Position numbers and translations under genes: made by a program. Below, piece after piece: positions 4,786 to 15,890 of a DNA stretch of 31,177 bases. The notes under the pieces are model-generated. The model was not told where the DNA came from and did not search any database. It saw only the letters and a list, made by a program, of their open reading frames with translations. Position 1 is the first letter of the stretch. Every line of letters begins with the position of its first letter. Source of the DNA: a virus; the IMG/VR virus record IMGVR_UViG_3300025141_000475, positions 1-31,177 of that record. The stretch is one strand, 5' to 3'.

Positions 4786-5394
4786 ATGGAACTAATAGTC
4801 AAACAAATTAGTAAAGAGGAAGCATCCTCGCTTCTTATTCCATATCATTACTTAACCAAGGAAAGCAAAGGGTTTCGTAGTGGATATAACTATGGTGCAT
4901 TTATTGATGGCAAACTTTTAGTAGTTTGTATATTTACTTGTCCTACAGTTCCTGAGTTAGTGAAAGGATGTTTTGGTCTTGGAAGGAAGGAACAGGAAGG
5001 AATCTTTGAATTAGGCAGACTAGTTAAACATCCTGATGCAAATGGTAATTTGATTCTTTCACAAGTAGTTGCTAGGGCAACGAAGGAATTAAGGAAGGCA
5101 ACAAAAGTTAAAGCAATACTTTCATATGCTGATTCAAGATATCATACAGGATATATTTATCAGGCATTGAATTTTAAATACTATGGTTTAACTAAACAGA
5201 AAACAGATTTTTGGTTTGAACAGGAAGATGGAAGCTACATCAAACATATAAGAGGGAAGGTTAAAGGAAGCAAAGGAGAGTGGAGACCAAGACCAAGGAA
5301 GCATAGATATTTAATAGTCTATGATAAAAACTTACAATGTCAATGGGAAGAGGAAATCTATCCTAAAGGAAACAATATTGAATATCAAGGATAA
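4786..5394 (+). CDS. Mom-like DNA modification protein, copy A
   Basis: A 202-residue protein of the Mom-like (GNAT-fold) type. Landmarks are YHYL at 20-23, ELGRLVKHP at 75-83, SYADSRYHTGYIYQALNFKYYG at 113-134 and RPRPRKHRY at 167-175. Phage Mu Mom converts adenine in DNA to N6-carbamoylmethyl-adenine, shielding phage DNA from restriction; a comparable role is inferred. No second start exists, because TAA 4759-4761 closes the frame upstream, and the ribosome site is very weak, so expression may be restrained. The gene overlaps copy B by 17 nt. The two copies share the motif order but are quite diverged. Confidence 0.7.
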   Translation: MELIVKQISKEEASSLLIPYHYLTKESKGFRSGYNYGAFIDGKLLVVCIFTCPTVPELVKGCFGLGRKEQEGIFELGRLVKHPDANGNLILSQVVARATKELRKATKVKAILSYADSRYHTGYIYQALNFKYYGLTKQKTDFWFEQEDGSYIKHIRGKVKGSKGEWRPRPRKHRYLIVYDKNLQCQWEEEIYPKGNNIEYQG

Positions 5395-6007
5395 CTATGT
5401 AATCAGACCTCTTGATTATAAGACTGCTATGGAACTGGTAGTAAAGAATCATTACTTACATAGGAAAGCACCATGCAGTCAGGCATTTGGATTATTCAAT
5501 AGGGAAGGGGAAGTGATAGGAACAGTAGTCTATGGAACTCCTGCAAGCAGACCATTACAGAAAGGAGTATGTGGAAGTGACGAATCAGACAATGTATTGG
5601 AACTGACTAGACTATGGGTACAAGATGGAACTCCAAAGAATGTGGAAAGTTTTCTGATAGGTAACACGCTACCTATGGTAGGAAAGGAAATAATAGTTTC
5701 CTATGCAGAAGTAGAGCAAGGGCATTTGGGAATTGTGTATCAGGCAACCAATTGGATTTATACTGGACTGTCAGATAAACATAGCAAGTGGTTTATAAAG
5801 GGAACTGAGGATAAGCATTGTAGACATATCTTTGATTCATATGGTGGAATCAATAAAGCTAAAGAGATACTAGGCGATAAGATGGTAAGAGGGGAGAGAC
5901 CAAGGAAACATAGGTATATATATTTCAACGCAGACAGAAGGCGAAAGAAAGAGTTATTAAATAAGTTACGCTATAAGATAAAACCTTATCCAAAAGACCC
6001 CACTTGA
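5378..6007 (+). CDS. Mom-like DNA modification protein, copy B
   Basis: A 209-residue Mom-like protein. KNHYLHRK (23-30), VYGTPASRPL (51-60), LELTRLW (74-80), SYAEVEQGHLGIVYQATNW (108-126) and RPRKHRY (174-180) follow the family order. I prefer the TTG start at 5378, because AAAGGA lies 7 nt upstream and the conserved region then begins at residue 7. An ATG at 5321 in the same frame would add 19 residues, but it lies deep inside copy A. Copy B keeps the canonical NHY and GTPASR features better than copy A. Its TGA stop is embedded in the next promoter. Confidence 0.7.
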   Translation: MNIKDNYVIRPLDYKTAMELVVKNHYLHRKAPCSQAFGLFNREGEVIGTVVYGTPASRPLQKGVCGSDESDNVLELTRLWVQDGTPKNVESFLIGNTLPMVGKEIIVSYAEVEQGHLGIVYQATNWIYTGLSDKHSKWFIKGTEDKHCRHIFDSYGGINKAKEILGDKMVRGERPRKHRYIYFNADRRRKKELLNKLRYKIKPYPKDPT

Positions 6008-7459: not shown

Positions 7460-7774
7460 ATGATAAAAGATAAGAAAATAGAACCAGTTGATACAAAGGC
7501 AGTAGATTTTCTACAGAGTATTAGAGGACAGTTTATAATGGCACAAGCATTACATACTGCAATCAAGACTCTTGAAAAAGAACCATATCCTGAATCTTCT
7601 AATATTGAAGATATGAAATATATTAAAGAACATATCTTTAATTTTCCTGTAGAAATAGTGGATGCTCAAAATGATATTTGGAGTCACATTTCAAGTGAAT
7701 TTTATACTGTGGGAGAAGACGGCAAAAGAATTGTTGATGCAGACAAATTGCTATCTAAACAGGAAGAGAGTTGA
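7460..7774 (+). CDS. Hypothetical phage protein, 104 aa
   Basis: A mostly helical protein (SIRGQFIMAQALHTAIKTL). The pattern of a helical hairpin followed by an acidic C-terminus is common among small phage proteins, but I cannot name the family. AAAAGGAG lies upstream of the ATG. The TGA stop (7772-7774) lies inside the -35 box that starts the structured RNA. Confidence 0.65.
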   Translation: MIKDKKIEPVDTKAVDFLQSIRGQFIMAQALHTAIKTLEKEPYPESSNIEDMKYIKEHIFNFPVEIVDAQNDIWSHISSEFYTVGEDGKRIVDADKLLSKQEES

Positions 7775-7799
7775 CAAAGCCTCTCGACTATGTTATTAT
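7771..7799 (+). promoter_or_regulatory. Promoter of the structured RNA
   Basis: TTGACA 7771-7776, 17-nt spacer, TATTAT 7794-7799. Transcription would begin near 7806. Confidence 0.75.
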
Positions 7800-7805
7800 A
7801 GTAAA

Positions 7806-8698
7806 TGACGAAAAAACTGAATACATGAAACTCTGAAGTTAAATCAGGGATGCAATAGTAAAGGGTAAGCTATAGTAATGAGGGAATCCCATTGATGTTC
7901 ATTAATTAACTCCTTTTGAATTCTCACCATCATTATGTTTTGCATTCCTGTCAACAAAGAGAGAGATATCATTAAAAATTTTAAAATACTTATAATTTAA
8001 GATGGCGAAACTATCTCTCTCAAGTTGAATAACTATAGAGTGGAAGGACTAACTTACTCCAAAGCTAGAACATACCTCAATCAAAGTTAATTTCCTCTGC
8101 ATACCATGGTATGACATGTCATAACTTCTCTGCATAGGTCTACATTAAGCTAGTATGGTTTTAAGTATGAGAGTAGGTAGGAAGGTTTATGCGAACCATC
8201 CTATAGAAAAACCTTCTAAGCCTTGTGATGGTGGTAGGAAAGTTTGCCTAACCATATTTGCGAAAATCTTATTTCATTTGCGAAATCTGAACCAGTAGTA
8301 GATTAGGGTAGATATGATTGTATACATCTGTTGGCAAGGAGAGGTCTAGGCATAGACTAAACCAAGCTGATGTTTCCTAGCACTTGACGAAAATAAGCAT
8401 GGGTTGAAACGAAATTGTCCTTACACTCTATAGCTATATTTATACTTCAAGTGGTATAGCTAATGGGAGAACCAAGGGTGTAGCACCGAAATATATCCTA
8501 CGGCAACCATAGTAATTTATTGTTGTCTTACTATGGATAACACGAGTGGTAGGTTACCGAAAGTCTACACCTTCCCAAAGGACAGTTGGATTACTCAACT
8601 GAAGATTACAAGGTAGTAATGCGATTGGGTCACCAATCAGAGAGCCAGTAATCGTTTCCTTTTATAACAAGTGGTCTAATTTGACAGACCACTTTTTT
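7806..8698 (+). ncRNA. Giant structured non-coding RNA, GOLLD/ROOL-like candidate
   Basis: About 890 nt with no credible gene, framed by a promoter and an intrinsic terminator. Helices found by eye: 7845-7855/7940-7950 (11 bp, one G-U); 7959-7968/8012-8021 (10 bp perfect); a long-range helix 8033-8049/8417-8433 (16 of 17 paired); 8178-8203; 8228-8255; 8344-8357; a nested arm 8477-8483/8565-8571, 8497-8501/8549-8553 and 8507-8515/8528-8536; 8583-8601; 8604-8609/8648-8653; 8623-8638. GCGAAA and CCGAAA loop motifs recur. Adjacent palindromes at 8101-8112 and 8110-8123 could mediate RNA-RNA contact. Size and phage setting fit the GOLLD and ROOL families; family membership is untested. Confidence 0.7.
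8669..8698 (+). terminator. Intrinsic terminator of the structured RNA
   Basis: Perfect 9-bp stem AAGTGGTCT (8669-8677)/AGACCACTT (8686-8694) continuing into T6 (8693-8698). Its loop and 3' arm hold the -35 box of the next promoter. Confidence 0.85.
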
Positions 8699-8709
8699 AA
8701 TGTTATAAT
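8681..8709 (+). promoter_or_regulatory. Promoter overlapping the terminator
   Basis: TTGACA 8681-8686, 17-nt spacer, TATAAT 8704-8709. It drives the 8.75-10.2 kb operon. Confidence 0.85.
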
Positions 8710-8749
8710 TGTACGAGTTGGTATAAAATAAATAAGGAGAATGTGCGAC

Positions 8750-8926
8750 ATGAAGAAATATGAAATAGAATATGAAGTAATAGGTCATCACCACATAACT
8801 GTAGAAGTACCTGATGGTATGTCTACAGAAGATATAGAAGAAAACCATGAATGTGAAGAATATCATGGAGACCCAATAGAAGAATGTATTATTACATCAG
8901 TTAATGAAATAGAGGAGAGTGCATAA
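8750..8926 (+). CDS. Small acidic phage protein, 58 aa
   Basis: The protein starts MKKYEIEYEVIGHHHITVEV, a beta-rich opening. I chose the ATG at 8750 because AAGGAG is 10 nt upstream; the in-frame ATG at 8741 is too close to that site. It is one of several small proteins here with a Y-x-V-x strand followed by a V-E-V/A strand (compare 8926, 16443, 18163). The function is unknown. It overlaps the next gene at TAATG. Confidence 0.65.
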   Translation: MKKYEIEYEVIGHHHITVEVPDGMSTEDIEENHECEEYHGDPIEECIITSVNEIEESA

Positions 8927-15152: not shown

Positions 15153-15181
15153 TTGACATTTTTTATAATATCCTGTATAAT
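15153..15181 (+). promoter_or_regulatory. Promoter
   Basis: TTGACA 15153-15158, 17-nt spacer, TATAAT 15176-15181. The core is identical to the promoter at 15862. Confidence 0.85.
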
Positions 15182-15861: not shown

Positions 15862-15890
15862 TTGACATTTTTTATAATATCCTGTATAAT
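15862..15890 (+). promoter_or_regulatory. Promoter
   Basis: TTGACA 15862-15867, 17-nt spacer, TATAAT 15885-15890. Confidence 0.85.

Follow-up and report, generated by a model that had tools for sequence, protein, structure and literature searches.

The locus analyzed here raises the question of whether a long interval without a gene, in a virus record whose + strand genes are close-packed, encodes a giant structured RNA and, if so, to which class of such RNAs it belongs. The record, IMGVR_UViG_3300025141_000475, is a linear IMG/VR virus sequence of 31,177 bases, and was considered over its whole length (hereafter, the window). The cages formed by the GOLLD and ROOL RNAs exceed the ribosome in size. 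They are RNA-only assemblies, held together by A-minor contacts, self-kissing loops and kissing loops (PMC12286853), and the original prediction for this locus likened it to the same class in length and phage context, with the caution that it might be divergent or new. The evidence presented below suggests that positions 7806-8698 probably constitute a phage gene that stands alone and specifies a giant non-coding RNA of ~890 nt, structured and active during infection. The existence of a discrete non-coding transcript appears very likely, its being a structured and functional giant RNA appears likely, and its assembly into a homo-oligomer or cage is plausible at a low probability.

Boundaries and coding capacity of the transcription unit

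The dedicated promoter and terminator anticipated for this RNA are both present on the + strand. The promoter (7771-7799) is of the sigma-70 type, with a TTGACA -35 box (7771-7776), a 17-nt spacer and a TATTAT -10 box (7794-7799) that is extended by a TG ahead of it (TGtTATTAT), for 11 of 12 matches, and its -35 box shares bases with the stop codon at the end of the upstream CDS (7460-7774). With nine occurrences in the window, where 0.07 would be expected, the pattern TTGACA-N17-TATNAT constitutes a genuine promoter type of this virus genome. At the other end, an intrinsic terminator (8669-8698) combines a 9-bp stem (8669-8677/8686-8694, pair probability 0.97) with an 8-nt loop and a T tract; four terminator-like sites are seen between positions 6000 and 10000, against 1.2 expected, and the stem at 8669-8694 is the longest of them. 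With the start placed ~7 nt past the -10 box and the end in the T tract (~8697-8698), the putative transcript spans 7806-8698 of the + strand. The end at 8709 claimed originally was too distal, as this position belongs to the promoter of the next gene (TTGACA-N17-TATAAT, 8681-8709; CDS 8741-8926), which lies outside the RNA, and the transcript is expected to end near 8697. The -35 box of this second promoter (8681) falls within the terminator of the RNA, in its loop and 3' arm, an arrangement of sequence elements by which the next gene would be transcribed separately from the RNA. A leader of the downstream gene was rejected on account of the terminator and the separate promoter. Judged from its sequence, 7771-8698 is hence a credible self-contained, ORF-less transcription unit, independent and longer than 500 nt, as for giant structured phage non-coding RNAs.

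The claim that some 890 nt are free of genes holds up as well. No ORF of at least 60 aa is present in 7775-8629, which at 855 nt is the longest interval of its kind in the record, and the largest sense-strand ORF inside the RNA region encodes 47 aa. The GC skew of the region (0.08) falls below that of all 18 sense genes tested (0.13-0.47), as expected if its bases are balanced by pairing. Furthermore, phage DNA very rarely contains so long a gap. Among 106 viral loci (1.06 Mb), just two ORF-less stretches of at least 600 nt were found (617 and 612 nt), the shorter of which holds short reading frames. Stretches of at least 650 nt were otherwise seen mainly in loci holding ROOL or ICP1-type RNAs, at record ends and in other phage records, including one in phage K. 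These observations bear on the idea that the interval is a decayed gene or a spacer that lies by chance between a promoter and a terminator and yields no functional RNA. Such an origin would be compatible with the occurrence of the sequence in one population only and with the modest helix statistics described below, but it is improbable in view of the rarity of the gap, the presence of a non-random repeated motif and the tight packing of the locus, where the promoter and the upstream stop codon share bases, as do the terminator and the next promoter.

Predicted secondary structure

The predicted fold of the 7806-8698 RNA comprises a succession of domains on the + strand. The 5' domain (7845-7950) is closed by an 11-bp helix (7845-7855/7940-7950, pair probability 0.96) and is directly followed by a second arm (7951-8028), whose helices 7951-7955/8024-8028 and 7959-7968/8012-8021 have pair probabilities of 0.96 and 0.99. 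An inverted repeat was also detected in this arm, whose helices enclose a 43-nt A/U-rich loop that might act as an unstructured linker. The central domain (8029-8437) is closed by a long-range helix (8029-8049/8417-8437) with 19 of 21 positions paired at a mean pair probability of ~0.9. This helix had been described as a 17-nt pair, and is therefore larger than claimed, but a helix of equal strength with a span of at least 100 nt arises in 6 of 200 dinucleotide shuffles (p ~0.03), so that it exceeds chance only modestly. In the 3' domain, pair probabilities delineate a first arm (8464-8577; helices 8464-8468/8573-8577, 8476-8483/8565-8572, 8497-8501/8549-8553 and 8507-8515/8528-8536) with an internal loop that carries ACCGAAA on each strand (8485-8491 and 8556-8562). 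The nested three-helix arm near the 3' end was also recovered, at 8578-8661, with helices 8578-8582/8657-8661, 8583-8588/8596-8601, 8604-8609/8648-8653 and 8623-8628/8633-8638.

The individual helices named in the original prediction thus exist, but the overall helix content is not beyond chance. The folding-energy z-score of the RNA region is -3.4 on the + strand and -3.0 on the - strand, and values as low or lower were obtained for 8 of the 34 other 860-nt windows taken from this genome. Among known RNAs used as yardsticks, four ROOL matches range from -1.1 to -3.6 and the ICP1 RNA scores -2.6. On the basis of these genome-wide and ROOL controls, the folding z-score says nothing for or against a giant RNA, and it was dropped as evidence. 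Strand-balanced composition, the repeated CGAAA motif and the rarity of the gap provide better evidence than folding strength.

Repeated motif, palindromes and loop complementarity

The pentamer CGAAA is found eight times on the + strand of the RNA region (7809, 8006, 8261, 8281, 8388, 8410, 8487 and 8558; span 7809-8562), against 0.48 copies expected, and is mostly predicted to be unpaired; none of 1000 shuffles contained any 5-mer so over-represented. An iteron or origin was rejected on account of the irregular spacing of the copies. A short motif that recurs eight times, mostly unpaired, could also be taken to indicate a long transcript, poorly structured or processed, that acts by base pairing as an antisense or sponge RNA, with CGAAA as its seed or as a protein-binding site, in place of a single integrated 3D fold. 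Folding no better than that of coding windows would fit such a transcript, and non-coding regulatory RNAs that carry antisense complementarity have been described in P1, P4 and PLE elements (PMC7567579). Perfect complementarity to the rest of the 31-kb record does not exceed 13 nt, however (a figure that covers the virus record and not the host), and the irregularly spaced copies have differing flanks, unlike a sponge array. An antisense or sponge function is accordingly considered rather unlikely.

Positions 8100-8123 of the + strand hold a pair of perfect 14-nt palindromes that overlap each other, CAUACCAUGGUAUG and UAUGACAUGUCAUA. In a shuffle test, at least two palindromes of 14 nt or more were present in 4 of 1000 sequences, a frequency to be read with the feature having been chosen after it was seen. 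Folded on itself, each palindrome can give a hairpin of 5 bp whose CAUG loop is self-complementary, and these loops are a candidate self-kissing contact. In the nested 3' arm, all seven bases of the loop GAUUACU (8589-8595) are complementary to AGUAAUC (8647-8653), and six of them also to AGUAAU (8615-8620). These elements may form a pseudoknot, pair in an alternative way or make a kiss between molecules.

Relationship to GOLLD, ROOL and the ICP1 RNA

Membership in the GOLLD/ROOL class, as originally proposed, is not supported by covariance model searches. Across the 4227 Rfam families, searched at gathering and permissive thresholds, nothing scored above gathering, and the best E-value (1.2) belonged to a chance-level snoRNA match. 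No Rfam match was obtained for a group II intron, a tmRNA or OLE/HEARO/raiA, and these candidates were rejected on that ground. The ROOL model (RF03087) gave no match to the RNA region up to E = 10, whereas the same search recovered four known or expected ROOL loci, in pMP118, LP65, phiEF24C and, below cut-off, A511, with E-values of 1e-19 to 1e-62. The GOLLD model (RF02032), which covers the conserved 3' region, likewise had no match up to E = 10, but the exclusion of GOLLD is weaker than that of ROOL because no record tried gave a positive control. Phage K (NC_005880) and ICP1 (NC_015157), both cited in papers for GOLLD/ROOL-like RNAs, match neither of the two Rfam models.

The comparison with GOLLD and ROOL reveals likenesses of build. 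Like GOLLD, the RNA described here exceeds 800 nt, is phage-borne and multi-domain, and has a distinct 3' domain, while its palindromic loops could self-kiss as in the GOLLD bridges B8/B9. In its length, its phage context and its separable 3' domain, the RNA would also fit GOLLD (PMC12286853), in an extremely diverged form past the reach of the 416-position Rfam model, and the GOLLD search that weighs against it is the one that lacked a positive control. That search nonetheless produced no match under permissive filters. Moreover, no tRNA gene is found anywhere in the 31-kb window, which extends the original observation that none is adjacent, and a tRNA neither neighbours nor lies inside the RNA, tRNA adjacency being common in GOLLD, if not obligatory. 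A diverged GOLLD therefore appears very improbable. With ROOL, the RNA shares a large size and a phage origin, and its A/U-rich region could be an internal linker, but it is ~890 nt long, against 574 ROOL model positions, and the model is unmatched.

A third point of comparison is the ORF-less RNA of the vibriophage ICP1, a transcript of ~800 nt that lies away from tRNA, is the most abundant of the phage and was set beside GOLLD and ROOL by its authors (PMC7567579). This RNA (NC_015157, 80.1-81.1 kb; L118:5098-6108) has diverged mosaic relatives in other Vibrio and Shewanella phages, and a family of ICP1-type RNAs was assembled around it in the present analysis (L134-L144). The family has no match in Rfam, and four sequences of its block 125-333 show compensatory changes on both sides of 22 of the 45 predicted pairs. 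Several members sit near tRNAs. The ICP1-type RNAs look like an unregistered family of giant phage RNAs. The RNA described here resembles the ICP1 RNA in its ~800-900 nt, its lack of ORFs, its origin in marine phages and its not being GOLLD or ROOL, and resembles that of ICP1 itself in the absence of neighbouring tRNAs and in a TTGACA promoter that follows the intrinsic terminator within ~50 nt. The two conserved blocks of the ICP1 type are, however, unmatched in sequence and in covariance: with filters off, the best scores of the RNA against blocks 125-333 (R2) and 540-669 (R1) are 2.9 and 6.2 bits, compared with 120-240 for family members, and CGAAA occurs twice in the ICP1 RNA and eight times here. 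A GAGCCAG sequence common to both RNAs, near the 3' end of that of ICP1, was dropped as a probable chance match.

At the level of homology detectable by these sequence searches, the RNA is hence outside the GOLLD, ROOL and ICP1 types. What remains of the original prediction after the Rfam, ROOL and GOLLD searches is its caution about a new class, and the RNA most likely represents an independent or extremely diverged class that works in a similar way.

Distribution

So far, the RNA is known from a single virus population. The sole other copy found, in IMGVR_UViG_3300025131_004004, is 100% identical and belongs to the same population, the 12,081 bases of that record running parallel to the start of the 31-kb record; as the two copies do not differ, they yield no covariation, and the fold is a predicted one. 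Neither the 50,697 phage records nor the 72,556 plasmid records searched with blastn returned anything beyond chance matches at E = 10. Viral and genome contigs were scanned using the DUF932 protein, the two flanking proteins and a Mom-like protein as baits, and stretches of the RNA were back-translated so that six degenerate DNA patterns could be scanned at once. All of these scans, and one with a gapped pattern, GCACCGAAA-N50-80-TACCGAAAG, recovered the RNA from the contigs only as the identical copy. Another 22 matches to the gapped pattern were unrelated to the RNA, and L012/L013 were regarded as chance matches. With a covariance model built on the 3' domain (R3), no match was seen in 0.94 Mb of loci or in 48 whole records. 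Relatives with a DUF932 protein 60-70% identical are syntenic with the record and are missing the whole accessory block (~4.3-10.3 kb) that carries the RNA; the block is therefore dispensable for the lineage.

Proposed mode of action and significance

In the proposed mechanism, the host RNA polymerase would make the RNA, which would then fold into a 5' arm, a linker-bearing arm, a central domain of ~400 nt and the nested arms of the 3' domain. Unpaired, A-rich CGAAA strands, as A-minor donors, and loop-loop contacts may tie these domains together, and the product would act as a structured RNA during infection. The CGAAA strands, the CAUG loops and the duplicated GAUUAC/GUAAU elements can be regarded as parts of the types used in GOLLD and ROOL cages. 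A bolder version, considered unlikely, is that of a new, sequence-unrelated class that forms an RNA-only homo-oligomer or cage through the CAUG loops, the GAUUACU/AGUAAUC pair and CGAAA A-minor strands, and that resembles GOLLD and ROOL by independent origin.

If giant ORF-less RNAs have arisen several times over in unrelated phages, as the RNA described here, the ICP1 type, GOLLD and ROOL would illustrate, the trait common to them would be a way of working and not a sequence family, and the real number of giant-RNA classes would exceed the content of Rfam. An orphan RNA with clean transcription boundaries is a handy object for asking whether cage formation recurs.

Other features of the record

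The prohead protease of the record (143-1567) matches only haloarchaeal tailed viruses, at 28-31%, among 50,697 phage records, yet the promoters and ribosome-binding sites of the virus look bacterial. Two adjacent, overlapping genes (4786-5394 and 5321-6007) encode Mom-family DNA-modification paralogues that are ~24% identical, the second of which has hundreds of relatives in viral contigs. Elsewhere in the record, the promoters at 15153-15181 and 15862-15890 are identical across 29 nt (TTGACATTTTTTATAATATCCTGTATAAT), which suggests a duplicated expression cassette. Lastly, the perfect palindrome TGATATATCA is present in eight copies (15787, 18042, 18060, 19967, 19998, 20384, 20771 and 22344), against 0.10 expected, all of them within 15.8-22.4 kb and operator-like in appearance.
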